From: Alphaproteobacteria bacterium
Lineage (GTDB): Bacteria > Pseudomonadota > Alphaproteobacteria > M2410
Assembly: GCA_030614785.1 (NCBI GenBank)
Contig: JAUWTJ010000038.1
Location: 1-37,598, forward strand
Direction of reading: 5' to 3'
DNA: 37,598 nt
Position numbers and translations under genes: made by a program. Below, piece after piece: positions 1,666-35,758 of this stretch (position 1 is the first letter of the stretch; each line of letters opens with the position of its first letter). Under the pieces are notes generated by a model. The model made no database searches and was not told the origin of the DNA. It worked only from the letters and a program-made list of their open reading frames with translations.

Positions 1666-2042
1666 TGTGTGCAATCCTTTGTGAACCATGATGTTCGCCA
1701 GCGTGCATCAAATCCCCATTCAAGTCACGAGATTTCGCGTTTCCTTTGCATTGATTCATAAAGAAGCCTCTATAGTTGTCATAACTCAATTCGGACGAGG
1801 GCGCTGGCGGCAGGGCACCAACTGTTACTTCAGATTTTCAATGATGATCGAAGTTTCACAATTTGTCTGGTGCGGTCGGAGCGGTGCTGAACCCACCGAA
1901 AAGTCTTCGTCTTTTCGGTCGCTTGGCAATGGGAGGAAAGAATGCGTTCGCTTAGGGGTGCAGATGAACGCATTCTGTGTTAGAATTCATCGTCCGCGTA
2001 ATTGGGGAGGAGATCATGGTTGATTAACTCACGGAGATTACA
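1666..2042. other. intergenic stretch with a hairpin repeat and the PEP-CTERM gene leader
   Basis: This gap contains repeat copy A (described separately). Just before the PEP-CTERM gene there is a strong GGGGAGGAG ribosome binding site followed by a tiny open frame, ATG GTT GAT TAA, at about 2016-2027. The real start codon, with its own GGAG site, follows at 2043. The three-codon leader could influence translation of the next gene, but this is inference. No convincing longer gene is seen; the frame across 1688-2023 lacks recognisable protein character and runs through the hairpin repeat. Confidence 0.4.
1868..1950. repeat. tRNA-end/hairpin repeat, copy A
   Basis: Begins with a degenerate copy of the tRNA 3'-end motif (tggtgcggtcggag), then gctgaaccc, then the perfect inverted repeat ACCGAAAAG-tcttcgt-CTTTTCGGT at 1895-1919, then a cgcttggcaatgggagg tail. 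It aligns almost end to end with copy C (3165-3260), which lies next to tRNA-Leu, and more loosely with copy B (2985-3060). Copies A and B flank the PEP-CTERM gene. A short relic (ctgaaatcaccgaaaag, 1347-1363) is a possible fourth copy. Confidence 0.75.
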
Positions 2043-2903
2043 ATGTGGATCAGAAATATTCGACCTTCGACACCCCTGTCATTTGTCACTATACTGATAG
2101 GGGTGTGCAGTATCGCTGTAGTGAACCCCTCTGCAACGGCCGGTGTGATACACCAATACTGTGACAACATAGGTGTATGCGTTCAGACATGGACATTTGG
2201 TTCGACTGATCGTGGCGCTTATCAGCAGGACGGGTTATCGACAGTCGCCAATCAGAATTACCTCGTTGGATCACAGAGCGTTTCGCCGCCAGGTTCGTTC
2301 GATGTATGGCGTAACTTCTTTGTTTTCGACATCAACCAACAGGTGACGGTGTCAAGTTCAAGCAATCGTCTCATAGGAGAACTGCGGATCCGGTGGCCAT
2401 CCGGCGGTGGCGGTCCGTATCCAGGCGGTACGTCCTACCATGTCTTTGATGTGCTTCACGGATTGTCGTTTGATCAGAAGATTGCGCTTACCGACGCCGT
2501 GATTGACGGTTCAGGCGGCATATCGGCCTATACCCGCCTGGGAGGCCAAATCCCGTTCCAGACTGACTTCGGGATCGCGAACACCTTCGCCCTGTTAGAC
2601 GGCATCGTGACGCTCAATCTGCATGGAATTGCGGCGGTCGTAAACGCGCCTTCTACCGGGAACAACAATCGAGTTGTTTTTGGAGGTGTGCTCGAAGACA
2701 TAAACGGCAACCTGATAAGCGGTATCGACCTGATTGCGTTTCTGGGTTCTGACATCTTCAATTGTCCGGAATGCGGCGCTGAGTTAATACTCGCAGAGGT
2801 TCCCCGTGGCATCAGTGTCCCCGAACCAGGCGTGCTCGGTTTATTCGGTATTGGCCTTGCGGGACTGGTTTTCGCCGGACACAAGCGACGACGGCAGTAT
2901 TGA
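2043..2903 (+). CDS. PEP-CTERM sorting domain protein (secreted/surface)
   Basis: The 286-residue product has an N-terminal signal peptide: a basic start (MWIRNIRPS), a hydrophobic run to about residue 28, and likely cleavage after the A-T-A region near residue 33. It ends with a textbook PEP-CTERM tail: VPEPG, a hydrophobic helix (LGLFGIGLAGLVFAG), then HKRRRQY. Such tails direct export and processing by an exosortase and are typical of exopolysaccharide-associated surface proteins. The middle (residues 35-255) is a Gly/Ser/Asn-rich, probably beta-rich domain I do not recognise. It carries Cys pairs near residues 40-46 and a CPEC motif near residue 239. No exosortase is in the window. The ATG at 2043 has a GGAG site 7 nt upstream. 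The gene is flanked by hairpin repeats and looks like a separate islet. Confidence 0.85.
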   Translation: MWIRNIRPSTPLSFVTILIGVCSIAVVNPSATAGVIHQYCDNIGVCVQTWTFGSTDRGAYQQDGLSTVANQNYLVGSQSVSPPGSFDVWRNFFVFDINQQVTVSSSSNRLIGELRIRWPSGGGGPYPGGTSYHVFDVLHGLSFDQKIALTDAVIDGSGGISAYTRLGGQIPFQTDFGIANTFALLDGIVTLNLHGIAAVVNAPSTGNNNRVVFGGVLEDINGNLISGIDLIAFLGSDIFNCPECGAELILAEVPRGISVPEPGVLGLFGIGLAGLVFAGHKRRRQY

Positions 2904-2984
2904 ACAATAGAAATTGTCGTCCGGGGAGATGCCCTGAATTGGCCTGTGTCAGCCGGAAGTCCACCCTGTTGCTGGATCAAAATG

Positions 2985-3060
2985 TGCAGTGCTGAAATCA
3001 CCGAAAAGTCTTTGCCTTTTCGGTCGCTTGGGAGTGGGAGGGTGGAGCGCGTTTGCTTTG
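2985..3060. repeat. tRNA-end/hairpin repeat, copy B
   Basis: Contains gctgaaatc followed by the inverted repeat ACCGAAAAG-tctttgc-CTTTTCGGT (3000-3024), then cgcttgggagtgggagggtggagcgcgtttgctt. The stem is identical to copies A and C; the loop differs by two bases. The tRNA-end portion is mostly lost. It sits about 80 nt after the PEP-CTERM stop codon and could also act as a transcription terminator for that gene. Confidence 0.7.
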
Positions 3061-3080
3061 CGTTGCAGCAGCGATAGCCT

Positions 3081-3164
3081 CCCTGCGCTCTTCGAGCTTC
3101 GGGAGACACTTGGCTCTAAATGACCTCCAGGTGGCCTGCCACCCGAAGCTCGAAGAGCGCAGGG
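3081..3164. repeat. long perfect inverted repeat (23-nt arms)
   Basis: The arms at 3081-3103 (ccctgcgctcttcgagcttc and on) and 3142-3164 are exact reverse complements over 23 nt. They are separated by 38 nt that hold a smaller hairpin (ggtggc-ct-gccacc). The right arm directly abuts the 18-nt copy of the tRNA-Leu 3' end at 3165. There is no T-run, so this is not a classical terminator; it may be an end of a small mobile or dispersed element. Confidence 0.7.
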
Positions 3165-3260
3165 TGGTGCGGATGGAGAGACACTGAACCCACCGAAAAG
3201 TCTTCGTCTTTTCGGTCGCTTGGGAATGGGAGGATGGAGCGCGTTTGCTTGCGCAAACGC
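3165..3260. repeat. tRNA-end/hairpin repeat, copy C, with duplicated tRNA-Leu 3' end
   Basis: The first 18 nt (tggtgcggatggagagac, 3165-3182) exactly repeat the 3' end of the tRNA-Leu gene at 3265-3282, in the same orientation. They are followed by the hairpin ACCGAAAAG-tcttcgt-CTTTTCGGT (3192-3216) and a second hairpin GCGTTTGC-ttgc-GCAAACGC (3241-3260) just past the tRNA. On the minus strand these hairpins lie directly downstream of tRNA-Leu and may end its transcript. The duplicated tRNA end resembles an attachment-site remnant. Confidence 0.75.
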
Positions 3261-6311: not shown

Positions 6312-7187
6312 CTACCGCGTCGGGATGGGCGTTCCGCTGCGGTAGTCGTAAAACCCGCGGCTGGTCTTGCGGCCGAGCCATCCGGCCTCGACGTATTTTA
6401 CAAGCAGTGGACACGGACGATATTTGGTATCGGCCAGCCCCTCATAGAGCACCTGCATAATAGACAGACAGGTATCCAGGCCGATAAAGTCAGCCAGTTC
6501 CAGCGGCCCCATAGGATGGTGCGCGCCGAGCTTCATGGATTTGTCGATATTCTCAACCGTCCCGACGCCTTCATAAAGCGTATAGACCGCTTCATTGAGC
6601 ATCGGCATCAGAATGCGGTTGACGATAAAGGCCGGGAAGTCTTCCGCGTTGGTTGGCTGTTTTCCGAGGCGCTGGACAAAAGTCAGGACCTCCTTGTAAG
6701 TCTCTTCGCCTGTCGCAATACCGCGAATGAGCTCGACCAGCTCCATCATTGGCGCCGGTTTCATGAAGTGAAGACCCATGAATTGTTCCGGGCGGTCCGT
6801 TGATGCGGCAAGGCGGGTGATGGAAATCGATGACGTATTGGATGCCAGGATCGCTTCGGGTTTGACGATTTCACACAGCGATGAAAAAATATCGCGCTTG
6901 ACCGCTTCGTTTTCGATAGCCGCTTCTATCGCAAGGTCGATATCGGCAAGGTCAGCCAGGGTATCGGTCGGCTTGATATGGGCCAGGGCCGCTATTTCGT
7001 CGCCGGGAGAGATCGTTCCGCGAGCGACCTGACGGCCGAGATTTGCCTCGATGATGCCAAGCGCTGCGGCGGTTTTCTTGGGGTCAGCGTCAAACAAGCG
7101 CACGTCAAACCCGGCAAGTGCGCAAACATGGGCAATACCGTTGCCCATCTGGCCCGCGCCAACAATGCCGATCCGTTCAATTGTCAT
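6312..7187 (-). CDS. hbd: 3-hydroxybutyryl-CoA dehydrogenase
   Basis: The 291-residue enzyme converts (S)-3-hydroxybutyryl-CoA to acetoacetyl-CoA with NAD(P). It has an N-terminal Rossmann fold with G-A-G-Q-M-G-N-G (residues 9-16), D33 in LFDADPKK, and the ASNTSSISI segment. The catalytic His lies in GLHFMKPAPMMELVELI, and the conserved N follows in FIVNRILMPMLNEA. The C-terminal helical domain ends with GLGRK-like WLGRKTSRGFYDY. Length is normal for the single-domain enzyme (about 280-295). It lies 119 nt downstream of etfA on the same strand, a pairing common in alphaproteobacteria. It is a natural partner of the ethylmalonyl-CoA genes at 21-26 kb because it supplies or consumes C4-CoA intermediates. 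Confidence 0.93.
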   Translation of the reverse strand: MTIERIGIVGAGQMGNGIAHVCALAGFDVRLFDADPKKTAAALGIIEANLGRQVARGTISPGDEIAALAHIKPTDTLADLADIDLAIEAAIENEAVKRDIFSSLCEIVKPEAILASNTSSISITRLAASTDRPEQFMGLHFMKPAPMMELVELIRGIATGEETYKEVLTFVQRLGKQPTNAEDFPAFIVNRILMPMLNEAVYTLYEGVGTVENIDKSMKLGAHHPMGPLELADFIGLDTCLSIMQVLYEGLADTKYRPCPLLVKYVEAGWLGRKTSRGFYDYRSGTPIPTR

Positions 7188-8248: not shown

Positions 8249-8997
8249 TAGAAGGACCCCGCTTCGTTTTTCAATTTGTCGACAAGTTCAGCGACGGATT
8301 CCACAATGACGCCAGCCTGACGGGTTGGCGGCTCGGTGGTTTCGAGAACTTCGAGACGCGGGGTGATATCGACACCGTAATCTTCCGGTGTCTTTGCATC
8401 GATCGGCTTTTTCTTCGCCTTCATGATGTTGGGCAGCGACGCATAACGCGGCTCGTTGAGCCGCAGGTCAGACGTAATGACAGCCGGCATTTTGAGATTG
8501 ATGGTCTGGAGACCACCATCAACTTCGCGGGTCACCGCGATGGTATCGCCTGCCGGTTCAATCTTTGAAGCAAAGGTGCCCTGCGCCCAGCCGAGCAGTT
8601 GTGCGAGCATCTGACCGGTCTGATTTGAATCATCGTCAATCGCCTGCTTGCCGACAATGACCAGATCCGGGTTTTCCTCGGCGACAATGGCCTTCAGGAT
8701 CTTCGCAACCGCGATCGGCTCAACTGTATCATCTGTTTTGACCAGAATGCCGCGATCTGCGCCCATGGCAAGAGCAGTGCGGATAGTTTCCTGAGCCTGC
8801 TGGGGTCCGACAGAAATCGCAATGATCTCCGTTGCGGTCCCGGCTTCTTTCAGACGAATGGCCTCCTCGATGGATATTTCATCAAAGGGGTTCATGGACA
8901 TTTTGACATTGGCGAGGTCGACCCCGCTGCCGTCTGGCTTGACGCGGATTTTGACATTATAATCGACGACCCGCTTGACGGGCACGAGAACTTTCAT
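8248..8997 (-). CDS. etfB: electron transfer flavoprotein subunit beta
   Basis: The 249-residue AMP-binding ETF subunit starts [19 protein letters not shown]. It carries the [16 protein letters not shown] stretch, the [15 protein letters not shown] motif and the beta-subunit signature ([20 protein letters not shown]) near residue 200. It is first in the etfB-etfA-dehydrogenase operon. A GGGAG site sits about 9-10 nt before the ATG, and a good sigma70-type promoter lies at 9041-9069. In related bacteria the adenosyltransferase gene usually lies directly upstream; here a four-gene block intervenes (9.2-13.7 kb). Confidence 0.96.
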
Positions 8998-9834: not shown

Positions 9835-10905
9835 TCAGGCCCGCGCTTCGAGCACCATATTGGTCGGTGTTTCGGTTGCCCGGCGTACAGCGGAGAATCC
9901 GGCTTGATTGAGAACCTCTGTCAGCTGCTTCTCGCCCGCCTGAGCGCCGAGGGCGAGCCCAACTTCCTGGGACCTGGACGTCGGAACACAGATTGTTGTC
10001 GAAAAGCCATAGAAAATTGCCGCGAGCACGTTGAGGTTCTCTCCAAGGCTGTCGGCGGCGGCTGGTTCGACCACCATGAAGGTGCCATCGGGTTTCAGAA
10101 CTTCCTTGATGTGGGCAGCAGCACCAACCGGGTCCCCCATGTCGTGCAGGGCATCGAATATGCAAGCGAAATCAAAGTCACTTCCGGAGAATTCCTTGGC
10201 GCTCGATACATGGAATTCCACATTCCTGACACCGGCTCTTTTCGCCTTGGATCTTGCTTCATCAATAGAAGGGCCATGAAAGTCAATACCGTGAATTGTG
10301 GACTTTGGATAAGCCTGAGCCATCAAAATTGTCGAGGAGCCATGACCGCAGCCAACATCGGCAACCTTCGCGCCGGACTTGAGTTTCGCCTCAACACCGT
10401 CAAGGGCCGGTATCCAGTTTTCAACCAGATTGGCCGCATAGCCGGGTCTGAAGAACCTGTCGGTGCCGCAGAAACAACAGGGCAGATGATCCGACCAGGG
10501 ACGCCCTTTACCGGTTTTGAATACATCAACAGCGGTTTCGTAACCTGCGTATTGCGCCACGATAGTCTCAAAGAAACCTTGCATACAGGTCGGCTCGCCT
10601 TCATGCGCGAACAGAGCCGCCTGTTCCGGGGATAAACTGAACGTGTCATCTGCGGCGTCATAGCCAACATATCCGGACGCCGCATTCGACGACAGCCATT
10701 CGCGCAGGTAACGCGGATCAATGCCGGACTTCTCCGACAAGGTTTTGTGGGTACACGGCCCGGCTTTTTCAAGAGCTTTATAAACCCCGGCCTGATCGCC
10801 GATATAGGCCATCAAGACACCTACAGCACCGCCAATGTCTCCCAGAACCTTGCCCTGCAATTCGGCAAACTTCGCCTCGTCAAATGATTGTTCACTCACG
10901 TGCAT
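9835..10905 (-). CDS. SAM-dependent methyltransferase with N-terminal winged helix (Rv2258c-like)
   Basis: The 356-residue protein has an N-terminal winged-helix/dimerisation domain (residues about 20-100: GVYKALEKAGPCTHKTLSEKSGIDPRYLREWLS). A methyltransferase core follows: motif I VADVGCGHGSSTI (about residues 178-190), IHGIDFHGPSI, FDFACIFDALHDMGDP and LKPDGTFMVVEP. This two-domain layout is that of Rv2258c-type methyltransferases. The substrate is unknown. It has a GAGGAG site just before the ATG. It sits 35 nt after the hydrolase-glycosyltransferase fusion and is probably co-transcribed with it, which suggests joint modification of one small molecule or lipid. Confidence 0.8.
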   Translation of the reverse strand: MHVSEQSFDEAKFAELQGKVLGDIGGAVGVLMAYIGDQAGVYKALEKAGPCTHKTLSEKSGIDPRYLREWLSSNAASGYVGYDAADDTFSLSPEQAALFAHEGEPTCMQGFFETIVAQYAGYETAVDVFKTGKGRPWSDHLPCCFCGTDRFFRPGYAANLVENWIPALDGVEAKLKSGAKVADVGCGHGSSTILMAQAYPKSTIHGIDFHGPSIDEARSKAKRAGVRNVEFHVSSAKEFSGSDFDFACIFDALHDMGDPVGAAAHIKEVLKPDGTFMVVEPAAADSLGENLNVLAAIFYGFSTTICVPTSRSQEVGLALGAQAGEKQLTEVLNQAGFSAVRRATETPTNMVLEARA

Positions 10906-10940: not shown

Positions 10941-13061
10941 CTACAATAATTCCGAAAGCATCTTTGCAGCCCGAAAGGCGCCATCGGCTTCAACCGGGCA
11001 GCTGGCAACAGGTTTTTCCAACTCTTGCGCCATAGCGAGGGCGATATGATCCGGGCTGCTCTCATCAAAAATCATTTTTCGGCCCGCGCGATATTGGTCA
11101 AGGCGGTGGGCAACATGAAAGTTTTGCTCAAAGTGGTTTTTGAGCGGAAAATAGAGAAACGGTGTGCCTGCAGCGGCAAGCTCCATGGTGGTCGTGAGCC
11201 CACCCTGCACAAGGGCCAGATCGCAGGCCGCCAGATGGCGATCGAGGTCCGGCACAAAGGCGCGTGCCTCCACCCCGTCCGGCAGATCAAACTGCGCCGG
11301 GTCAAGACGCGGCCCGGTCACAAGGATCATCCGCAGTTCGGGGATATGACGTTTGGCAATAGGATAAGCCGCCAGGATACGCCGGATCAAAGTTCCACCA
11401 ACGCCCGAGCCACCAACGGTAACGATGCAGACTTTTTCATCCTCGGCATACCCAAGCCGCGCCCGCAATTCACCTTTGACACCAAAACCAGAGGGATGTT
11501 CCCCCAGGACATAGCCGCAGAAATCAAAATGCTGTGGCACCCAGTCACGCATCGCCGGCAGATCCTTGCCGAAGCCATGCGGCACAATGTCTGCCGGGTT
11601 GCCGACGAAAATGGATCGGTCGCGCACGCCTGGATGATTTTCAACATGCTCGATCATCTCGGCATTATAGTCCGTCGTCAGAAAGGCTTCATGAGTCCCA
11701 CCTTCAGGCATCGGGACATAGCCAACAAAATCGGTTAGCCAGGCCACCTGGGCTTTCTTGAGCTCAGGGTGTTCATGCCAATAGTGATCCACGTCCCAGG
11801 CTTCGTCGGCGATCACAAGGTCGTAAGCCTCCTGTTCAACGGCTTCCTGAAAGATCATGAAATTGGCAATCAGGATTTCATCCATATGTCGGATCGCCTG
11901 AAAGGCGTGCAAATCATGTTCGCCAGCCTCGCTCTCGATATGCGCGGATTCGTTGGCAAGCCTTACACTGGCCGGATGGATACGCTCGTCATTTGCCTTC
12001 AAAAACCGGGTCACCGGATCCTGGGACAGCCAGTCGACCTGAAGATCCGGGTGCAGCTTGCGCAACTCCCGTGTGATTGCAAGGTCGCGGCGAGCATGGC
12101 CGAGCCCGATAGGAGAAGAAAGATAGAGTGCCTTTGGACGACGAATTTTGCGTGGTGCCGTCTGCGGAACTTCTTTGTTGTCAGATCCGGGAACCCCCAG
12201 CTTGCGTGTCAGGAAATCACGCATCAATACATTTATTTTTGCTGGGATACGCGCCAACGGATTATGTCCGGCACCGGGAATAATTACTAATTCCCCCTGA
12301 GTTAGGCTCGCCACAATTTTTGAGTCCTCATCAGGAATTATTGCGTCATCATCGCCGTGGATTGCCAATACCGGACATTTAATGGACCTGTAAATTGATT
12401 CATCCAAAACAGGGTCAGCATCTTCGGGAGCAGCTCTCGCAGCAATGAGAACTTCGCCGCTGGTTTGCATCATCCACTTGATCCCATCTTCAATCTGCTT
12501 GGTCGAATGGGGTTCCGGAAAGATTTGATTTATAAAGAAGTCTGCATAATCGGGATAATTCTCACGCCAATAGTGCAGGTTTTGTTTCTCCCATCCCTGG
12601 GGCTTGTCAAATTTTCGGAAATAATCGGTTACTGACCTATGCTCGTGTGATGCAGCAAAAGGTGAAGCCGCACCCACCGTAATCATGGCAGTCACCCGGT
12701 CAGAATAGTAGGCCGCCAGCGCGGCGCAAACAGGACCCGAAGCTGATAGCCCAACCAGAATAGCCTTTTCTGTTTTGGTCTCATCCAGAACTGCAATTGC
12801 ATCTTTCACAGAATCTACAAAGCGATAAGCTTCAGGATCTGTCGGACGATCCGACTGGCCATTGCCCCGGGGGTCATAGGTGATACAGCGAAAGTGATTG
12901 CTAAAAAAAGGGATCTGCGCTTTGTAGCCCCGCGAGTGAATTACAGGCCAGCACGGGACCAGAAAAAGGATCGTATGATCACCCTTGCCATAGACCTCGT
13001 AGTGAAGTTGAACGCCATCGCGATCAAGTGTGCCCTGTGTCGTGGGTTGCTTTGCACGCAT
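10941..13061 (-). CDS. alpha/beta hydrolase - glycosyltransferase fusion
   Basis: A 706-residue two-domain enzyme. Residues 1-290 are an alpha/beta hydrolase: oxyanion/cap region LVPCWPVIHSRG, nucleophile elbow G-L-S106-A-S-G, acid in HGDDD (237-239) and H266 in GAGHNP, so the triad looks intact. Residues about 308-706 are a UGT/MurG-like GT-B glycosyltransferase: N-terminal SSPIGLGHARRDLA, then VTVGGSGVGG, and the donor site QGGLTTTMELAAAGTPFLYFPL followed by HFEQN. The frame is open to 13256, but the start at 13061 is preferred: it has an AAGGGAA site and lies just after the TetR stop, implying coupling. Substrates are unknown. It may attach a sugar and hydrolyse or transfer an acyl group on the same metabolite. 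Confidence 0.85.
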   Translation of the reverse strand: MRAKQPTTQGTLDRDGVQLHYEVYGKGDHTILFLVPCWPVIHSRGYKAQIPFFSNHFRCITYDPRGNGQSDRPTDPEAYRFVDSVKDAIAVLDETKTEKAILVGLSASGPVCAALAAYYSDRVTAMITVGAASPFAASHEHRSVTDYFRKFDKPQGWEKQNLHYWRENYPDYADFFINQIFPEPHSTKQIEDGIKWMMQTSGEVLIAARAAPEDADPVLDESIYRSIKCPVLAIHGDDDAIIPDEDSKIVASLTQGELVIIPGAGHNPLARIPAKINVLMRDFLTRKLGVPGSDNKEVPQTAPRKIRRPKALYLSSPIGLGHARRDLAITRELRKLHPDLQVDWLSQDPVTRFLKANDERIHPASVRLANESAHIESEAGEHDLHAFQAIRHMDEILIANFMIFQEAVEQEAYDLVIADEAWDVDHYWHEHPELKKAQVAWLTDFVGYVPMPEGGTHEAFLTTDYNAEMIEHVENHPGVRDRSIFVGNPADIVPHGFGKDLPAMRDWVPQHFDFCGYVLGEHPSGFGVKGELRARLGYAEDEKVCIVTVGGSGVGGTLIRRILAAYPIAKRHIPELRMILVTGPRLDPAQFDLPDGVEARAFVPDLDRHLAACDLALVQGGLTTTMELAAAGTPFLYFPLKNHFEQNFHVAHRLDQYRAGRKMIFDESSPDHIALAMAQELEKPVASCPVEADGAFRAAKMLSELL

Positions 13062-22939: not shown

Positions 22940-24235
22940 CTAGCTGTTACCGACTTCGATTGCGTCTTCGATGGTGCGGAGGCCCGGCACCTTGGCGGAG
23001 ACCAGCACAGCCATATTGCCCGGCAGATGCTTGTTGTGATGCATCTTGGTGTGGGCCTTGGCTATATCATCCCATGCAAAGACTTCCGACATACACGGAT
23101 CAATGCGGCGCTCGATGACCAGCTTGTTGGCCTGTGCCGCCTGTTTCAGATTGGCAAAGTGGGACCCTTGCACACGCTTCTGGCGCATCCACAGGAAGCG
23201 CGCATCCATGGTGAGGTTGTAGCCCGTGGTCCCGGCGCAAATGACGACCATGCCGCCGTTCTTCACGACATTGACCGAGACCGGGAAGGTTTGCTCGCCG
23301 GGGTGTTCAAAAACACAATCAACGTTATTGCCTTTACCGGTGATGTTCCAGATGGCTTTGCCGAACTTGCGAACCTCGCCCATATATTCAGCGAAGCCCT
23401 CGCCATTGACTTCAGGCAGTTGACCCCAACAATTGTAATCCTTGCGATTAAGAACAGCCTTGGCGCCCATGGAGAGGACAAAATCGCGTTTGTCGTCATT
23501 GGACACCACACCGATGGCGTTGGCGCCGGAAACCGCACAAAGCTGAGTCGCGAAAGAACCAAGGCCGCCAGAGGCACCCCAGACCAGAACATTGTGGCCA
23601 GGGCGCAGGATATGCGGGCGATGGCCGAACAGCATCCGGTAGGCGGTCGCCAGCGTCAGCACGTAGCAGCCTGATTCTTCCCAGGTGAGATGCTGCGGGC
23701 GCGGCATCAGCTGCTGCGCCTGAACGCGGGTAAACTGGGCAAAGGAGCCATCCGGCGTCTCATAACCCCAGATCCGCTGGGAGGGCGAGAACATCGGATC
23801 GCCGCCGTTACATTCCTCGTCGTCACCGTCATCCTGATTGCAGTGCACAACGACCTCGTCACCGACCTTCCAGCGGGTGACTTTCGAGCCCACAGCGTAG
23901 ACAACCCCTGAGGCGTCGGAGCCGGCAACGTGGTAATCCTGCTTGTGGATATCGAACGGCGAAACCGGCGTGCCGAGAGCGGCCCAGACGCCGTTGTAAT
24001 TGACCCCGGCGGCCATCACCAGAACCAGCACCTCGTGGCTGTCGATTGTCGGCGTCGGCACGACCTCGACCTGCATCGCATCCTCAGGCTCACCATGGCG
24101 TTCGCGGCGGATCGCCCAGGCGTACATGTTCTTTGGCACATGGCCGAGCGGCGGGATTTCACCAACCTCGTAGAGGTCCTTGAGATTTGCTGGCGCCGGG
24201 CTTTTGGCGTCCGCGACGGTATCCGTGGTGGTCAT
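22940..24235 (-). CDS. ccr: crotonyl-CoA carboxylase/reductase
   Basis: The 431-residue NADPH-dependent enzyme reductively carboxylates crotonyl-CoA to ethylmalonyl-CoA, the defining step of the ethylmalonyl-CoA pathway. It is a medium-chain dehydrogenase/reductase with an N-terminal catalytic domain (residues 37-190; VNYNGVWAALG, YHVAGSDASGVVYAVG) and a Rossmann motif VWGASGGLGSFATQL near 217-231. The DCVFEHPGEQTFP segment is typical of Ccr. Asn81 lies where a CO2-binding Asn81 is reported in a characterised actinobacterial Ccr; no alignment was run. A GAGGAAG site precedes the ATG. It is divergent from ecm and upstream of mcd, the expected pathway neighbourhood. Confidence 0.95.
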   Translation of the reverse strand: MTTTDTVADAKSPAPANLKDLYEVGEIPPLGHVPKNMYAWAIRRERHGEPEDAMQVEVVPTPTIDSHEVLVLVMAAGVNYNGVWAALGTPVSPFDIHKQDYHVAGSDASGVVYAVGSKVTRWKVGDEVVVHCNQDDGDDEECNGGDPMFSPSQRIWGYETPDGSFAQFTRVQAQQLMPRPQHLTWEESGCYVLTLATAYRMLFGHRPHILRPGHNVLVWGASGGLGSFATQLCAVSGANAIGVVSNDDKRDFVLSMGAKAVLNRKDYNCWGQLPEVNGEGFAEYMGEVRKFGKAIWNITGKGNNVDCVFEHPGEQTFPVSVNVVKNGGMVVICAGTTGYNLTMDARFLWMRQKRVQGSHFANLKQAAQANKLVIERRIDPCMSEVFAWDDIAKAHTKMHHNKHLPGNMAVLVSAKVPGLRTIEDAIEVGNS

Positions 24236-24468: not shown

Positions 24469-24498
24469 AAAAAGAAAAACAGGAAAGAGCGTTTGAGC

Positions 24499-26478
24499 AT
24501 GAGTGAGAACAACAAGGACCGGACGAAAGATCGGCCGTGGATTTTCAGGACCTATTCGGGGCATTCCACCGCAAAGGCGTCCAACGAGCTCTACCGGACC
24601 AATCTGGCCAAGGGACAGACCGGGCTTTCCATCGCTTTCGATCTGCCGACGCAGACGGGATATGACTCAGACCACGTGCTGGCGCGCGGCGAGGTTGGCA
24701 AGGTCGGTGTGCCGATTTCTCATGTCGGCGACATGAAGGCGCTGTTCGAGAACATCCCCATCGAACAGATGAACACATCGATGACCATCAATGCCACGGC
24801 CCCATGGTTGTTGGCGCTCTATATTGCCGCGGCAGAAGATCAGGGTGCGGATCGCTCAAAGCTCCAGGGCACGACACAAAATGATATTGTGAAAGAATAC
24901 CTGTCGCGCGGCACCTATGTCTTCCCGCCTGCGCCATCACTGAAACTGACCACCGATGTCATTGCCTTTACCTACCGCGAACTGCCGAAATGGAACCCGG
25001 TCAATATTTGCTCCTATCATTTGCAGGAAGCCGGCGCGACACCGGTGCAGGAACTTTCCTTTGCGCTGGCAACAGCGATTGCGGTGCTTGATACCGTGAA
25101 GGCCTCGGGCCAGGTGCCGCAAGAAGATTTCGCAGGCGTGGTTGGCCGCATCTCTTTCTTTGTCAACGCAGGCCTCAGGTTCATCACCGAGATCGCCAAG
25201 ATGCGCGCCTTTGTCGATCTGTGGGATGAAATTTGCCAGCAAAGATATGGCGTGGAAGACCCCAAGATGCGGCGCTTCCGCTACGGTGTTCAGGTCAATT
25301 CGCTCGGGCTCACCGAGCAGCAGCCGGAGAACAATGCGACCCGCATCCTGCTTGAAATGCTGGCCGTTGTGCTGTCCAAGGACGCGCGGGCCCGGGCCGT
25401 GCAGCTGCCGACATGGAACGAGGCGCTTGGTCTGCCACGGCCCTGGGACCAGCAGTGGTCGCTGCGCACACAGCAGATCATGGCGATGGAAACCGACCTG
25501 CTTGAATATGACGATATCTTCAACGGCTCCCATGTCATGAATGCAAAGGTTGAAAGCCTGAAGGAAGAAGCAAAGGCCGAGCTTGCAAAGATCGAAGCCA
25601 TGGGCGGCGCCGTTGAAGCGCTCGACACGAGCTATCTGAAAGCAGCGCTGGTGCGCTCCAATACGGCGCGGCTGAAAAAAATCGAGTCCGGCGAGCAAAC
25701 TGTTGTGGGTGTTAATGCGTTTCAGGAAACCGCTGCGTCGCCGCTGGCCAATTCGTCAGACGGCGGTATTTTTACCGTGCCAGAAAGTGTTGAGTTTGAG
25801 CAGATCGCACGGCTTAATGAATGGCGCCAGAAGCGAGATGCAAAGGCTGTCACAGCAGCGCTGGTCGAACTTCAGGCGGCAGCAAAAGAAGGCCGCAATG
25901 TCATGGAGGCTTCGATCGAGGCCGCCCGAGCCGGTGTGACCACCGGCGAATGGGGCACGGCGCTGAGAGAAATCTACGGCGAATACCGCGCGCCGACCGG
26001 CGTCATTATTGACGAAGACATGAAGGCCGAAGAGCTCGCCGAAGTGCGCGCGAAGGTCGACAAGGTCTCCAAAAAACTCGGCCAGCGTCTCAAGCTGCTC
26101 GTCGGCAAACCGGGTCTCGACGGTCATTCAAATGGCGCCGAGCAAATCGCCGTGCGGGCCGGAGACGTCGGCATGGCCGTGGTCTATGACGGCATCCGCC
26201 TGACGCCGGAAGAACTTGTCGCCTCGGCCAAAAAAGAAGGCGTCAACGCCATCGGTATCTCGATCCTGTCCGGCAGTCACGTCCCCCTGATGCGCGACCT
26301 GATGGGGCGCCTGCGCACCGAAGGGCTCGACCATCTGCCTGTTGTGGTTGGCGGCATCATCCCCGATGAGGACCGCCTGGTGCTCAAGCAAATGGGCGTC
26401 ACGGCGGTGTTCACACCGAAGGACTATCAGCTGACGCAAATCATGGGCGAGATTGTCGATCTGGTGGATAAGGGGTAG
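24499..26478 (+). CDS. ecm: ethylmalonyl-CoA mutase (B12-dependent)
   Basis: The 659-residue adenosylcobalamin enzyme converts (2R)-ethylmalonyl-CoA to methylsuccinyl-CoA. The N-terminal TIM barrel starts PWIFRTYSGHSTA and contains GLSIAFDLPTQTGYDSDH and LQGTTQNDIVKEYLSRGTYVFPP. The C-terminal B12 domain has GKPGLDGHSNGAEQIA (DxHxxG, with the cobalt-ligating His) and ISILSGSH ... VVGGIIP. The mutase subtype (ethylmalonyl versus methylmalonyl) is assigned from its divergent pairing with ccr. A TTG at 24493 is an alternative start. The last 65 nt (through the TA of the TAG stop) are repeated at 28482-28546, so the present 3' end probably came with an inserted element; the encoded tail is unchanged. 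Confidence 0.93.
   Translation: MSENNKDRTKDRPWIFRTYSGHSTAKASNELYRTNLAKGQTGLSIAFDLPTQTGYDSDHVLARGEVGKVGVPISHVGDMKALFENIPIEQMNTSMTINATAPWLLALYIAAAEDQGADRSKLQGTTQNDIVKEYLSRGTYVFPPAPSLKLTTDVIAFTYRELPKWNPVNICSYHLQEAGATPVQELSFALATAIAVLDTVKASGQVPQEDFAGVVGRISFFVNAGLRFITEIAKMRAFVDLWDEICQQRYGVEDPKMRRFRYGVQVNSLGLTEQQPENNATRILLEMLAVVLSKDARARAVQLPTWNEALGLPRPWDQQWSLRTQQIMAMETDLLEYDDIFNGSHVMNAKVESLKEEAKAELAKIEAMGGAVEALDTSYLKAALVRSNTARLKKIESGEQTVVGVNAFQETAASPLANSSDGGIFTVPESVEFEQIARLNEWRQKRDAKAVTAALVELQAAAKEGRNVMEASIEAARAGVTTGEWGTALREIYGEYRAPTGVIIDEDMKAEELAEVRAKVDKVSKKLGQRLKLLVGKPGLDGHSNGAEQIAVRAGDVGMAVVYDGIRLTPEELVASAKKEGVNAIGISILSGSHVPLMRDLMGRLRTEGLDHLPVVVGGIIPDEDRLVLKQMGVTAVFTPKDYQLTQIMGEIVDLVDKG
26413..26477 (+). 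repeat. left copy of the duplicated ecm 3' end
   Basis: These 65 nt encode the last residues TPKDYQLTQIMGEIVDLVDKG plus TA of the stop. They match 28482-28546 at 64 of 65 positions. The only mismatch (gat versus gac) is synonymous, and the stop codons differ (TAG here, TAA on the right). Confidence 0.95.
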
Positions 26479-26490
26479 AAAATAGGGTAT

Positions 26491-27006
26491 TTACTGCAAA
26501 ACTGGCCAAGGTTTAGGCGCGTCAATTTCCCTAAACACCTCAAATAAACTGCGAGCTCTGACCAAGCGTCCATTATCTGACTTTTCTGGTTTTCGCCGTT
26601 CAGTCTCACCCCAAGGGTCCGGATATCCCTCGCGGCCAAGAAACACAGCTGTTGCCAATAGCTCTAGCTCAACAGCGTCAACATCGGCAGCCAATCTTAG
26701 GAGCTTGTGTTGGTTTTCATCGACCTCTTTGGACACAAAATTGTTCGTTGAATAAATTGAATACGTCCCACCCCATGTGGTTCGACTTTTGCTTTCACTC
26801 AGCAAACCCAGCAGACCTGCATACTTTGTTGCAGTTGCAAGTTCCTCGCTAAATGGGCCGTAATGCTTATAGGCAAAAGTGAAATCCTCTATATATCCCG
26901 CGGATTGCAACAGATAGACGATCTTCTGTAATCGCGTACGCCCTACGACTTGACCGCCTGCTGCGGAGATAATGGAAGCAACTTTTGCGGCATTAGTCCT
27001 CAACAT
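26491..27006 (-). CDS. YwgA-like protein, partner of HD hydrolase
   Basis: A 171-residue protein. The conserved part is N-terminal: GRTRLQKIVYLLQSAGY (residues 22-38), then FAYKHYGPFSEELATATKYAGLLGLL (45-69). RLQK-I-Y-L plus Y-x-YGP-(F/Y)-S-x-EL is the hallmark of YwgA and resembles the DUF4065/SocA ('Panacea') fold found in antitoxins. The C-terminal half is variable and helical, ending with a charged linker and FREIDAPKPWPVLQ. The gene overlaps the HD gene by 7 nt (ATGTTGA), implying coupled translation. In Bacillus subtilis ywfO (HD) and ywgA are also neighbours. Function is unknown; a regulator or neutraliser of the HD enzyme is inference. Confidence 0.75.
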   Translation of the reverse strand: MLRTNAAKVASIISAAGGQVVGRTRLQKIVYLLQSAGYIEDFTFAYKHYGPFSEELATATKYAGLLGLLSESKSRTTWGGTYSIYSTNNFVSKEVDENQHKLLRLAADVDAVELELLATAVFLGREGYPDPWGETERRKPEKSDNGRLVRARSLFEVFREIDAPKPWPVLQ

Positions 27007-28397
27007 GATGCTAGCTCCCCTTTTACAATTCCTTCGACGGCGTCTCTCGCCTCCGAATCGTTTTCAGAAACATACGCCCTGAAAACCTTGAACGACTTTA
27101 ACCCTGCAACGACATGAGATCGATCCCTAAGGTCAACCAATCCACTTCCACCATCAACCCGTACATTTATTTGATCCAGAAATCCCTTTGATTCGTCAAT
27201 AGGTTTGTAGGGAGAGCGAGCTGTTTCGTCGATCAAGATCCGAGGAATTGCGTCTTCATTACCTGACTTCCAATCATCGAGTTTCTCGCGTAATGCCGCG
27301 CACAGCTTATCGATCTTATCAATGTAATCGTCAGAGTTACTGCTCTTGGGATCAATTTTGCTTGCAACCTCGCGCCGGATATCATGGCACTTAAATAACT
27401 TACGATCATGGAGTCTTCTGGAAAATTCAGATACCAAGGGATCTGAAGCACCAGCCAATTGTGTTAGAGCACCGGTTACAACAGCATCATCAAGATCAAG
27501 AGCCACCTCGAGGTCTTCAGGGTCCTTTGCAAATCGGATCAGAGGATGGGCCAATGGCAATCCGGTCTCCTTCCATTTTCCATCCCGAACAAGCTCAACA
27601 ACCTTGACCAATAACTCAGTAAACAAGCATTCAGCACCTCTAGTTGCCTTGTGGAAATAGATCGTAGGGTACAATTGAAACAAACCCATTACATAGGCCT
27701 CCGCCGCATGAATGGCCTTAGGTTCTATTACAAAGGTCTCAATAGACCCCACCTGTGAATCATCGACACCAACGGGCACTTCGGCGATTGTCAAATTTGC
27801 CAACAGCCAAGTAAAATCAATGGCAGAATGCTGCGTACCTGTCATCAACCTATCACGCCTCATATAATCCAATCGGTCAGCATCAAACTGGCTCGAAACT
27901 ACTGCGCAATGCACAGATTTCTTGCCCCTCCCGGCGACAATGTCTGCAACATCACGAGCAAAACCACTCCCCATCTCATTCAGGATGTCGGCAACTTCGC
28001 CATTTTGTATCAACAAATCGCTCATGACTTCGTGATCTGCGAGCTTCAGTTCCAATCGCTTCCCAACACTTTCAAAAGAGTGGCTAAACGGCCCATGCCC
28101 CAAATCATGGACCAGAGCCGCAGCTAAGGCCCTGTGCTCCTTTGACTCCACCCTGGTGCCAGTATGATCCTCAACAATTTTCATCAATTGACGGCCAGTG
28201 TGAAACACGCCAACGCTATGCGCAAATCGAGTGTGGCTCGCACCAGGATATACAAAGTCTGAAAATCCCAATTGTTTCACTCTTCTCAACCTCTGAAACG
28301 GGCGGGTTTGCAGCACTTTCCACAAATTGCGTTCCAGCTCATCGGTGGAAAACTCTATCAAGTCATGCAACGGGTCGCGAATTCTCTGAGTGGACAT
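27000..28397 (-). CDS. HD-domain nucleotide phosphohydrolase (YwfO/SAMHD1-like)
   Basis: A 465-residue protein with a complete HD metal site. The N-terminal IRDPLHDLIEF motif is followed by FQRLRRVKQLGFSDFVYPGASHTRFAHSVGV (arginines plus H55/H60), then H97-D98 in ALVHDLGHGPFSHSFE, and the last Asp in QFDADRLDYMRRD (172-180). This set is that of YwfO/EF1143-type dNTP triphosphohydrolases related to SAMHD1 and dGTPase. A C-terminal region (about 290-465) is less conserved. Depleting dNTPs is a known antiviral strategy in bacteria, so a defence role is plausible but unproven. It has its own promoter at 28423-28450 and is the first gene of the islet. Confidence 0.88.
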   Translation of the reverse strand: MSTQRIRDPLHDLIEFSTDELERNLWKVLQTRPFQRLRRVKQLGFSDFVYPGASHTRFAHSVGVFHTGRQLMKIVEDHTGTRVESKEHRALAAALVHDLGHGPFSHSFESVGKRLELKLADHEVMSDLLIQNGEVADILNEMGSGFARDVADIVAGRGKKSVHCAVVSSQFDADRLDYMRRDRLMTGTQHSAIDFTWLLANLTIAEVPVGVDDSQVGSIETFVIEPKAIHAAEAYVMGLFQLYPTIYFHKATRGAECLFTELLVKVVELVRDGKWKETGLPLAHPLIRFAKDPEDLEVALDLDDAVVTGALTQLAGASDPLVSEFSRRLHDRKLFKCHDIRREVASKIDPKSSNSDDYIDKIDKLCAALREKLDDWKSGNEDAIPRILIDETARSPYKPIDESKGFLDQINVRVDGGSGLVDLRDRSHVVAGLKSFKVFRAYVSENDSEARDAVEGIVKGELASC

Positions 28398-28422
28398 CGC
28401 CTATATGTTCTCTATTTGTTCT

Positions 28423-28450
28423 TTTATACTGGATGTGCAATATATGTCAA
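28423..28450 (-). promoter_or_regulatory. sigma70-type promoter of the HD/YwgA islet
   Basis: On the minus strand TTGACA (28450-28445) and TATAAA (28428-28423) are 16 nt apart, a near-consensus promoter. Transcription would start near 28416, about 19 nt before the HD start codon. It lies wholly inside the islet. Confidence 0.75.
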
Positions 28451-28481
28451 TACAATCATACATGTGAATCGTAATTTCACA

Positions 28482-28546
28482 ACACCGAAGGACTATCAGC
28501 TGACGCAAATCATGGGCGAGATTGTCGATCTGGTGGACAAGGGGTA
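28482..28546 (+). repeat. right copy of the duplicated ecm 3' end
   Basis: Same 65 nt as 26413-26477 with one synonymous change, continuing into a TAA stop. The copy keeps the ecm coding frame although it has no gene upstream of it any more. A hairpin 28 nt downstream (28575-28597) would be the natural end of the ancestral ecm transcript. Confidence 0.95.
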
Positions 28547-34635: not shown

Positions 34636-34694
34636 GCTGCGGGTCATGAGGTGTCGGACTGTTTTGAGAATTGAAGAACGTAATCATCTACATT

Positions 34695-34810
34695 CCTCAT
34701 CCTGAGGGATTGCGAAGCAATCGTCTCGAAGGAGAAGGGCCCGGATGTATGCCTTCAGTGCTCGACTGGCCTCCTTCGAGACGCATCTGACGATGCTCCT
34801 CAGGATGAGG
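34695..34810. repeat. dispersed inverted repeat, CCTCATCCTGAGG ... CCTCAGGATGAGG
   Basis: The 13-nt ends are exact reverse complements. Inside, gtctcgaaggag and ctccttcgagac are also complementary, so the 116-nt element can fold into one long hairpin. The pattern is a well-known intergenic repeat of alphaproteobacteria. It lies 21 nt beyond the gluQ stop. Confidence 0.8.
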
Positions 34811-34831
34811 GTGGTGATTGTTGCTGATGAT

Positions 34832-35758
34832 TCAGCCAATCCGGAAATCAGTCCAGGGCATGCGGTCAATTTGGGCCCGGACACCTTCGGGCGACAAACC
34901 TTTTTCCCTGAGGGCGCGCAGGGTCTGGTCCTTGTCGCGTTTGGCCAGCCGCCTGCCCGCCTCGTCACGCACGAGGGGGTGATGAAAATATTTCGGGGGA
35001 TCGAAGCCGAGCAGCGCCTGAAGGACCCGCTGGATATGGGTCGCCTCGCGCAGGTCCTCGCCGCGTATGACATGAGAGATGGCCTGCAAATGGTCATCAA
35101 GAACCACGGAGACATGATAGGACGTCGGGATGTCCTTGCGGGCAAGAACGATGTCGCCGAAAAGGCGGGCATCGACTTCAAGGACCCTTTCCTCTTCCGA
35201 GGCGAGCGCGATCAGTTCCTAAAAGTGAAGCGGCAGTGCGCCGCTGGCCTGCAAATGCTCAACAGCCTTTTCAGTGTCGAGGCGCAGGGCGAAGGGCTCT
35301 CCGGCCCGCGTTCGGGCCTGGCGCTCATCGTCACCGAGGGCGCGGCAAGTACCAGGATAATGCGGTCCGTCCGGCCCATGGGGGGCGCTCACAGCCGCTT
35401 CGATTTCGGCGGCGATGTCCTTGCGGGTGCAGAAGCAGGGATAGGTGAGGCCCTCGTCTGTGAGGCGTTTGATTACTGCCTTGTATTCATCAAAGTGCTC
35501 CGCCTGACGGCGCACTGGCTCCTCCCACTCCAGGCCAAGCCAGCCAAGGTCTTCCAGGATCGCTGTATCAAACTCGGGCCGACAGCGCGACAGATCAATA
35601 TCCTCGATGCGCAGAACGAAGGCCCCGCCGCGCGCCCTGGCAAAATCATAGGCGGTGAGCGCAGAATATCCGTGCCCCGAATGGAGAAGGCCGGAGGGGC
35701 TCGGTGCAAAGCGGGTGCGTATTGATGAGCCGTTTTGGGGCCGTGCACTGGATGACAC
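34832..35758 (-). pseudogene. gluQ: glutamyl-Q tRNA(Asp) synthetase gene interrupted by an in-frame TAG
   Basis: GluQRS transfers glutamate to the queuosine base of tRNA-Asp. The N-terminal half has the HIGH-like motif in FAPSPSGLLHSGHGYSAL, LRIEDID, and the zinc-site cysteines (YPCFCTRKDI, YPGTCR). The C-terminal half has FGDIVLARKDIPTSYH, VIRGEDL, HHPLVRDEAGRRLAKRDKDQTLRALR (KMSKS-like). Both halves are in the same frame. A TAG at 35219-35221 (codon 180 of about 308) separates them, in LHF-stop-ELIALAS. So this is a nonsense mutation, a sequence error or read-through, not a frameshift. The start is a GTG at 35758. Everything else is intact, which suggests recent damage. Confidence 0.85.

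Follow-up and report, generated by a model that had tools for sequence, protein, structure and literature searches.

A horizontally acquired HD dNTPase-YwgA gene pair at a duplicated ecm gene end: a candidate switchable defense against viruses

Why should two overlapping genes, one for a putative dNTP-degrading enzyme and one for a small antitoxin-like protein, be wedged behind the 3' end of an unrelated acyl-CoA mutase gene? The genes were found in the window, by which we mean the whole stretch of 37,598 nucleotides analyzed here (Table 1). An earlier note, made from the letters of this DNA, had proposed that the small protein controls the nucleotide hydrolase and that together they form a compact mobile defense module. 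Both open reading frames and their short overlap proved to lie where that note had placed them, each with an ATG start. Its near-consensus promoter is likewise present as a 10/12 site upstream of the HD gene, but 7 sites of this type occur in the region versus 2.8 expected, so the match is weak evidence with little meaning by itself.

Table 1. Coordinates of the HD-YwgA locus in the window
Feature	Position	Strand	Remarks
Crotonyl-CoA carboxylase/reductase gene	22940-24235		divergent from ecm
ecm-type acyl-CoA mutase gene	24493-26478	+	intact; 3' end is the insertion target
Left copy of 65-bp direct repeat	26413-26477	+	last 22 codons of intact ecm
Inserted DNA	26478-28481		~2.0 kb; contains the HD and YwgA genes only, without a recombinase
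YwgA-family protein gene	26491-27006	-	171 aa; ATG start; predicted stand-alone relative of DarG C-terminal (antitoxin) domain
Overlap of HD and YwgA genes	27000-27006	-	7 nt; translational coupling probable
Putative HD dNTP triphosphohydrolase gene	27000-28397	-	465 aa; ATG start; EF1143/YwfO/SAMHD1 type
Promoter-like site TTCACA-18-TATATT	28439-28468	-	upstream of HD gene; 10/12, consensus match only
Second promoter-like site	28482-28455	-	9/12 consensus match
Right repeat copy	28482-28546	+	orphan ecm 3' end on far side of pair

The larger protein carries the Pfam domains HD and HD_assoc_2, and its closest solved relative by sequence is EF1143 of Enterococcus faecalis (2o6i, E 1e-42), followed by Bacteroides and Aquifex proteins and SAMHD1. 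Its predicted structure (pLDDT 92) matched EF1143 chains over the full length, including the region past the HD domain (Foldseek; E 1e-21, TM 0.72-0.79), and the matched EF1143 structure is one with dNTPs bound. The metal ligands of EF1143 are H66, H110, D111 and D183 (PMC8177086). They align with H60, H97, D98 and D174 of the window protein, residues that were invariant in 25 HD relatives together with H101, H106 and H122; the complete YwfO/SAMHD1-type metal site claimed earlier is thereby confirmed. Sequence, active-site residues and predicted structure all identify the protein as a dNTP triphosphohydrolase, and hydrolysis of dNTPs is well supported by homology. The full-length fold, the H...HD...D site and the neighboring histidines are common to EF1143 (PDB 2o6i/3irh/4lrl), YwfO and SAMHD1. 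Differences from EF1143 lie in identity, which is ~27% in the structural alignment, and in the pairing of the window enzyme with a member of the YwgA family. Among the HD relatives sampled in an E. faecalis-associated record, Staphylococcus, Listeria or Aerococcus, none had a detected YwgA gene next to it. One high-ranking sequence match, 9mr6, was suspected to be the Clover dGTPase CloA and is actually SAMHD1 of the fungus Rhizophagus.

A Pfam search of the small window protein matched no domain. Alignment of 30 family members revealed invariant Y49-G50-P51, K28, F44, T119 and K139 and nearly invariant R23, Q27 and H48, and the RLQK-I-Y and YGPFSEEL motifs singled out in the earlier note are both present. 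The family profile found exactly one solved match, the DarG C-terminal domain in the DarT-DarG complex (7yk3_B, E 1.6e-6). The same entry was the top Foldseek match of the predicted structure (pLDDT 95.8; prob 1.00, TM 0.57, E 3e-3), with weak fold matches to PadR-like winged-helix regulators. PADLOC and NCBIfam DarG models were matched by all 30 family members, the window protein aligning with the models' C-terminal region. Thus, profile and predicted fold show the small protein as a stand-alone relative of the DarG C-terminal domain, its sole solved homolog by profile and its best by fold. In DarTG, this domain occupies the DarT active site and blocks DarT (PMC11481870). DarG also has an N-terminal macrodomain, by which ADP-ribose is taken off DNA, and has the DNA ADP-ribosyltransferase DarT as partner, in contrast to the small protein, which lacks a macrodomain and is partnered with a dNTPase. 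Its stand-alone length, a score of 24.6 bits against the DarG family cut-off of 250, and its HD enzyme partner argue against a DarG antitoxin proper. Net charge in the family has a median of -1 and is not consistently acidic, so DarG-type DNA mimicry need not carry over, and mimicry by the small protein is unsupported by charge.

The earlier note had likened the small protein to SocA/DUF4065 antitoxins. The antitoxin-like look survived structural comparison, but with the DarG C-terminal domain as the matching fold, and similarity to SocA/Panacea (DUF4065, PF13274) is faint. What the families have in common is a GP-containing signature: YGP is invariant among the small proteins, and neutralization by Panacea depends critically on its GPV signature (PMC8832971). 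PF13274 was not matched by the window protein and was matched weakly by 4 of 30 relatives (best E 0.0015, below any usual threshold), which argues against SocA/DUF4065 membership. No description of YwgA function was found in our literature search.

Are the two genes a unit? With only the small protein as query, a scan of 84,980 species genomes yielded 29 loci, from alphaproteobacteria, Desulfovibrio, a spirochaete, a planctomycete, a Chloroherpetonaceae bacterium, myxobacteria and an archaeon. An HD match by tblastn lay immediately upstream on the same strand in 28 of them; at the remaining locus, L160, the HD gene was also found by tblastn, with the small open reading frame (1919-2485) next to it and a 4-nt overlap. 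The genes overlapped in 19 of 29 pairs with measurable spacing, and most others were no more than 25 nt apart. Distances among HD proteins and among small proteins were strongly correlated (r=0.93, Mantel p 5e-4), which indicates that the two travel together. Pairing of the small protein with an HD gene is therefore near-obligate. The converse fails: some HD relatives in Bacilli, Bacteroides and certain alphaproteobacterial lineages lack the small protein, and paired HD proteins cluster on the HD tree but do not form a single clade. At L142, a second, partial HD relative (8649-8957) lies directly 3' of the pair. At three loci (L144, L148 and L158), the HD gene is broken by an in-frame stop, deletion or frameshift with the small gene open. 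Such asymmetry might reflect toxin-first decay, but the 2.7-fold greater length of the HD gene and the small number of cases, only three, speak against drawing that conclusion.

The locus had earlier been called mobile-looking, and the evidence for this is stronger than first claimed. The pair is flanked by a 65-bp direct repeat (64/65 identical, 98%) that duplicates the ecm end, and the G+C content of the insert is 46.8% versus ~57% in both flanks. In three family relatives, the ecm genes end in a single copy, and both the HD gene and the small gene were absent from the three relatives searched. The window insert thus resembles an integrative element at a gene 3' end in having direct repeats that duplicate that end, but the DNA between them is taken up by the HD and YwgA genes, with no integrase of its own. 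Judged from these sequence features, the pair was horizontally acquired as an insertion. The same architecture was found at other pairs. In Nannocystis pusilla (L158), the pair sits between a 92-bp, 97.8% duplication of a sodium:sulfate-symporter-like gene end (6444-6535 and 8505-8596), and in an alphaproteobacterial MAG (L160) between a 96-bp, 87.5% duplication of another gene end (301-396 and 2597-2692), with no recombinase inside either insert. Weaker repeats were present at L139 and L142, that of L139 possibly in part reflecting two similar terminators. By one fixed procedure, in which a repeat had to lie no more than 300 bp away on each side, flanking repeats were detected at 5 of 32 pairs versus 3 of 754 control spans drawn at random from the fetched loci (Fisher p 4e-6), and strong repeats at 3 versus 1, respectively (p 2e-4).

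Target genes and repeat lengths differ from pair to pair, pairs lie in either orientation to the target, and no recombinase is present inside; all of this speaks against a single site-specific integrase. Integrases that acted in trans or were later lost could be responsible, as could homology-assisted insertion. We also considered whether the ecm repeat might be an attachment site for a phage and rejected this: a 32-base pattern drawn from the repeat was unmatched in viral contigs, and the search of the bacterium's own genome reported no third copy. In a genome of another family (L064), the same ecm 3' end carries an unrelated 1.4-kb insert with a gene for a 267-aa lipoprotein-like (secreted-protein-like) product, between a 157-bp, 93% duplication of the ecm end (about 10306-10462 and 11854-12010). 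Gene-end-duplication architecture is therefore not exclusive to the HD-YwgA pair. Such duplications at integrase-less islets raise the question of how single operons move without a recombinase of their own.

Strong matches to the small protein (E<1e-15, our own cut) were obtained in 7 of 385 alphaproteobacterial genomes (~2%), and every one adjoins an HD gene or is split from one by a contig end. A phylum sample gave strong matches in 5 of 398 genomes, two of which, besides the window's own, were common to the class set. Many proteobacterial copies form solitary islets flanked by housekeeping genes (rpsB-tsf/pyrH, carB, lepA, pyk, topA-rnr; several of these names are our reading of the sequences), and most lie outside defense islands. 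Some pairs do have defense neighbors, namely type I R-M (L120), DrmMI/PglX-like (L151), a DUF1156 methylase (L156), IetA-like (L155) and a PADLOC candidate family (L138). Carriage by phages or plasmids was considered and rejected: no copy of the small protein was found in phage records or viral contigs, and the plasmids searched gave one weak match, on a large replicon with Bacilli chromosomal gene order.

Bacilli present a different setting. Named as neighbors in the earlier note, ywfO and ywgA are indeed adjacent in Priestia megaterium, where YwgA, encoded directly behind YwfO, scored E 5.9e-23 against a family profile built without it. The two families, their order and their strand are the same as in the window, but the Priestia pair holds a conserved position between RsfA/DUF1450 and tautomerase/site-2 protease genes, in contrast to the sporadic insertions of proteobacterial pairs. 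A conserved chromosomal locus suits a housekeeping role and indicates that mobile defense is not the whole story. Accordingly, the idea of a mobile defense module holds in part. Sporadic distribution and insertion bounded by a duplicated gene end speak for it; the conserved locus in Bacilli and the prevalence of lone islets outside defense islands speak against it.

HD relatives without a YwgA partner were also found on plasmids of rhizobia and Roseibium (NZ_CP045625, NZ_CP072166, NZ_CP144207 and NZ_CP021819; L161, L162, L164 and L165). By annotation, these unpaired genes end a constant four-gene operon of radical SAM, 3'-5' exonuclease, AAA ATPase and HD genes, with CBASS, Shedu or ABC-3C adjoining in three of four cases. 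Their HD proteins form a clade (100/100) inside a larger clade of paired HD proteins (96/99). The four-gene unit is a candidate defense operon, not modeled as such in PADLOC 2.0.0, and the occurrence of the same HD lineage with other partners in defense islands supports an effector role for the enzyme.

Among known systems, Clover offers an analogous logic. Its dGTPase CloA is restrained by the operon partner CloB (PMC12265719), and like the window pair it joins an HD dNTPase effector to an operon partner. CloB, however, is a Pol-beta nucleotidyltransferase making p3diT, to which the fold of the small protein is unrelated, and a partner with a DarG C-terminal fold argues against Clover membership. 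CloA is also octameric, in contrast to the tetrameric EF1143 (PMC8177086). The anti-phage dGTPase (PADLOC dGTPase, NCBIfam NF041026) belongs to the same HD dNTPase superfamily, but the window enzyme matches it at residues 17-110 only, the core HD segment, and its 20.7 bits against a cut-off of 400 exclude membership. No dNTPase-antitoxin pair of the YwgA-HD kind was found in our literature search. The overlapping operon would fit a type II toxin-antitoxin layout, and gene order in DarTG is toxin, then antitoxin.

We put at about even the chance that the pair is a horizontally acquired effector-regulator operon in which a dNTP-depleting HD effector is restrained by an antitoxin-like partner; both the restraint and the defense role are inferred. 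That the two genes are almost always together makes a switchable anti-virus defense plausible. The small protein would bind the co-translated HD enzyme and keep it inactive or at low activity. Phage infection would free the enzyme, either through a change in the dNTP pool or through a phage product removing the small protein, whereupon dNTPs would fall and phage DNA replication and host growth would stop. By analogy, the logic would be that of Clover, with a protein inhibitor replacing the nucleotide signal. The main rival is a housekeeping regulator of the dNTP pool, in which the small protein would adjust dNTP trimming by the HD enzyme to the growth state, and transfer to proteobacteria brought no dedicated defense role. 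Consistent with such a role, YwfO-YwgA keeps a conserved position in Priestia, HD relatives occur singly at ordinary places on the chromosomes of Staphylococcus and Bacteroides, and many proteobacterial copies stand alone beside housekeeping genes such as rpsB-tsf/pyrH, carB, lepA and pyk. Nonetheless, a housekeeping gene would not typically be limited to ~2% of the class and missing from family relatives, and duplicated gene ends at the insertion, occasional defense neighbors and between-phyla transfer also weigh against this explanation, which we regard as unlikely.

The near-obligate pairing that suits an inhibitor would fit an activator equally well. In a two-component defense without an antitoxin, the small protein would be a sensor, activator or recruiting subunit that switches on or directs the dNTPase; weak PadR-like winged-helix matches and a net charge unlike that of a DNA mimic point the same way. 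We judge this improbable, given that the only confident homolog is an antitoxin domain and that HD relatives without a YwgA partner indicate an enzyme type not dependent on the partner for activity. A selfish addiction cassette, harming cells that lose the pair and affecting phage only incidentally, would account for an overlapping two-gene unit with the candidate toxin first and for lone islets at gene ends. It is nevertheless very improbable, as the pair is almost absent from plasmids and phages, where addiction modules are common, and a large conserved catalytic enzyme would be unusual for such a module.

Returning to a restrained, dNTP-depleting effector, we offer a broader proposal only tentatively and with some doubt: that a DarG-C-like antitoxin domain has been recruited to restrain a SAMHD1-type dNTPase, making a widespread two-gene anti-phage system that is not modeled as such in PADLOC 2.0.0 and that may spread as a 2-kb recombinase-less cassette landing at, and duplicating, the 3' ends of unrelated genes. 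If true, the uncharacterized ywfO-ywgA pair, present from Bacilli to archaea, would gain a function, and the DarG-type antitoxin domain a new target class. There would be a second way to restrain a toxic dNTPase beside the nucleotide signal of Clover, and a bacterial parallel to how SAMHD1-like enzymes stay safe in uninfected cells.

Two further features of the window lie apart from the pair. A GluQ-RS-like gene at 34684-35758 on the minus strand continues in the same frame across a single stop near 35219, indicating a pseudogene or a sequencing error. At 1868-3250, an 86-nt element occurs three times in copies 76-86% alike, with the core CACCGAAAAGTCTT..CTTTTCGGTCGCTTGG.
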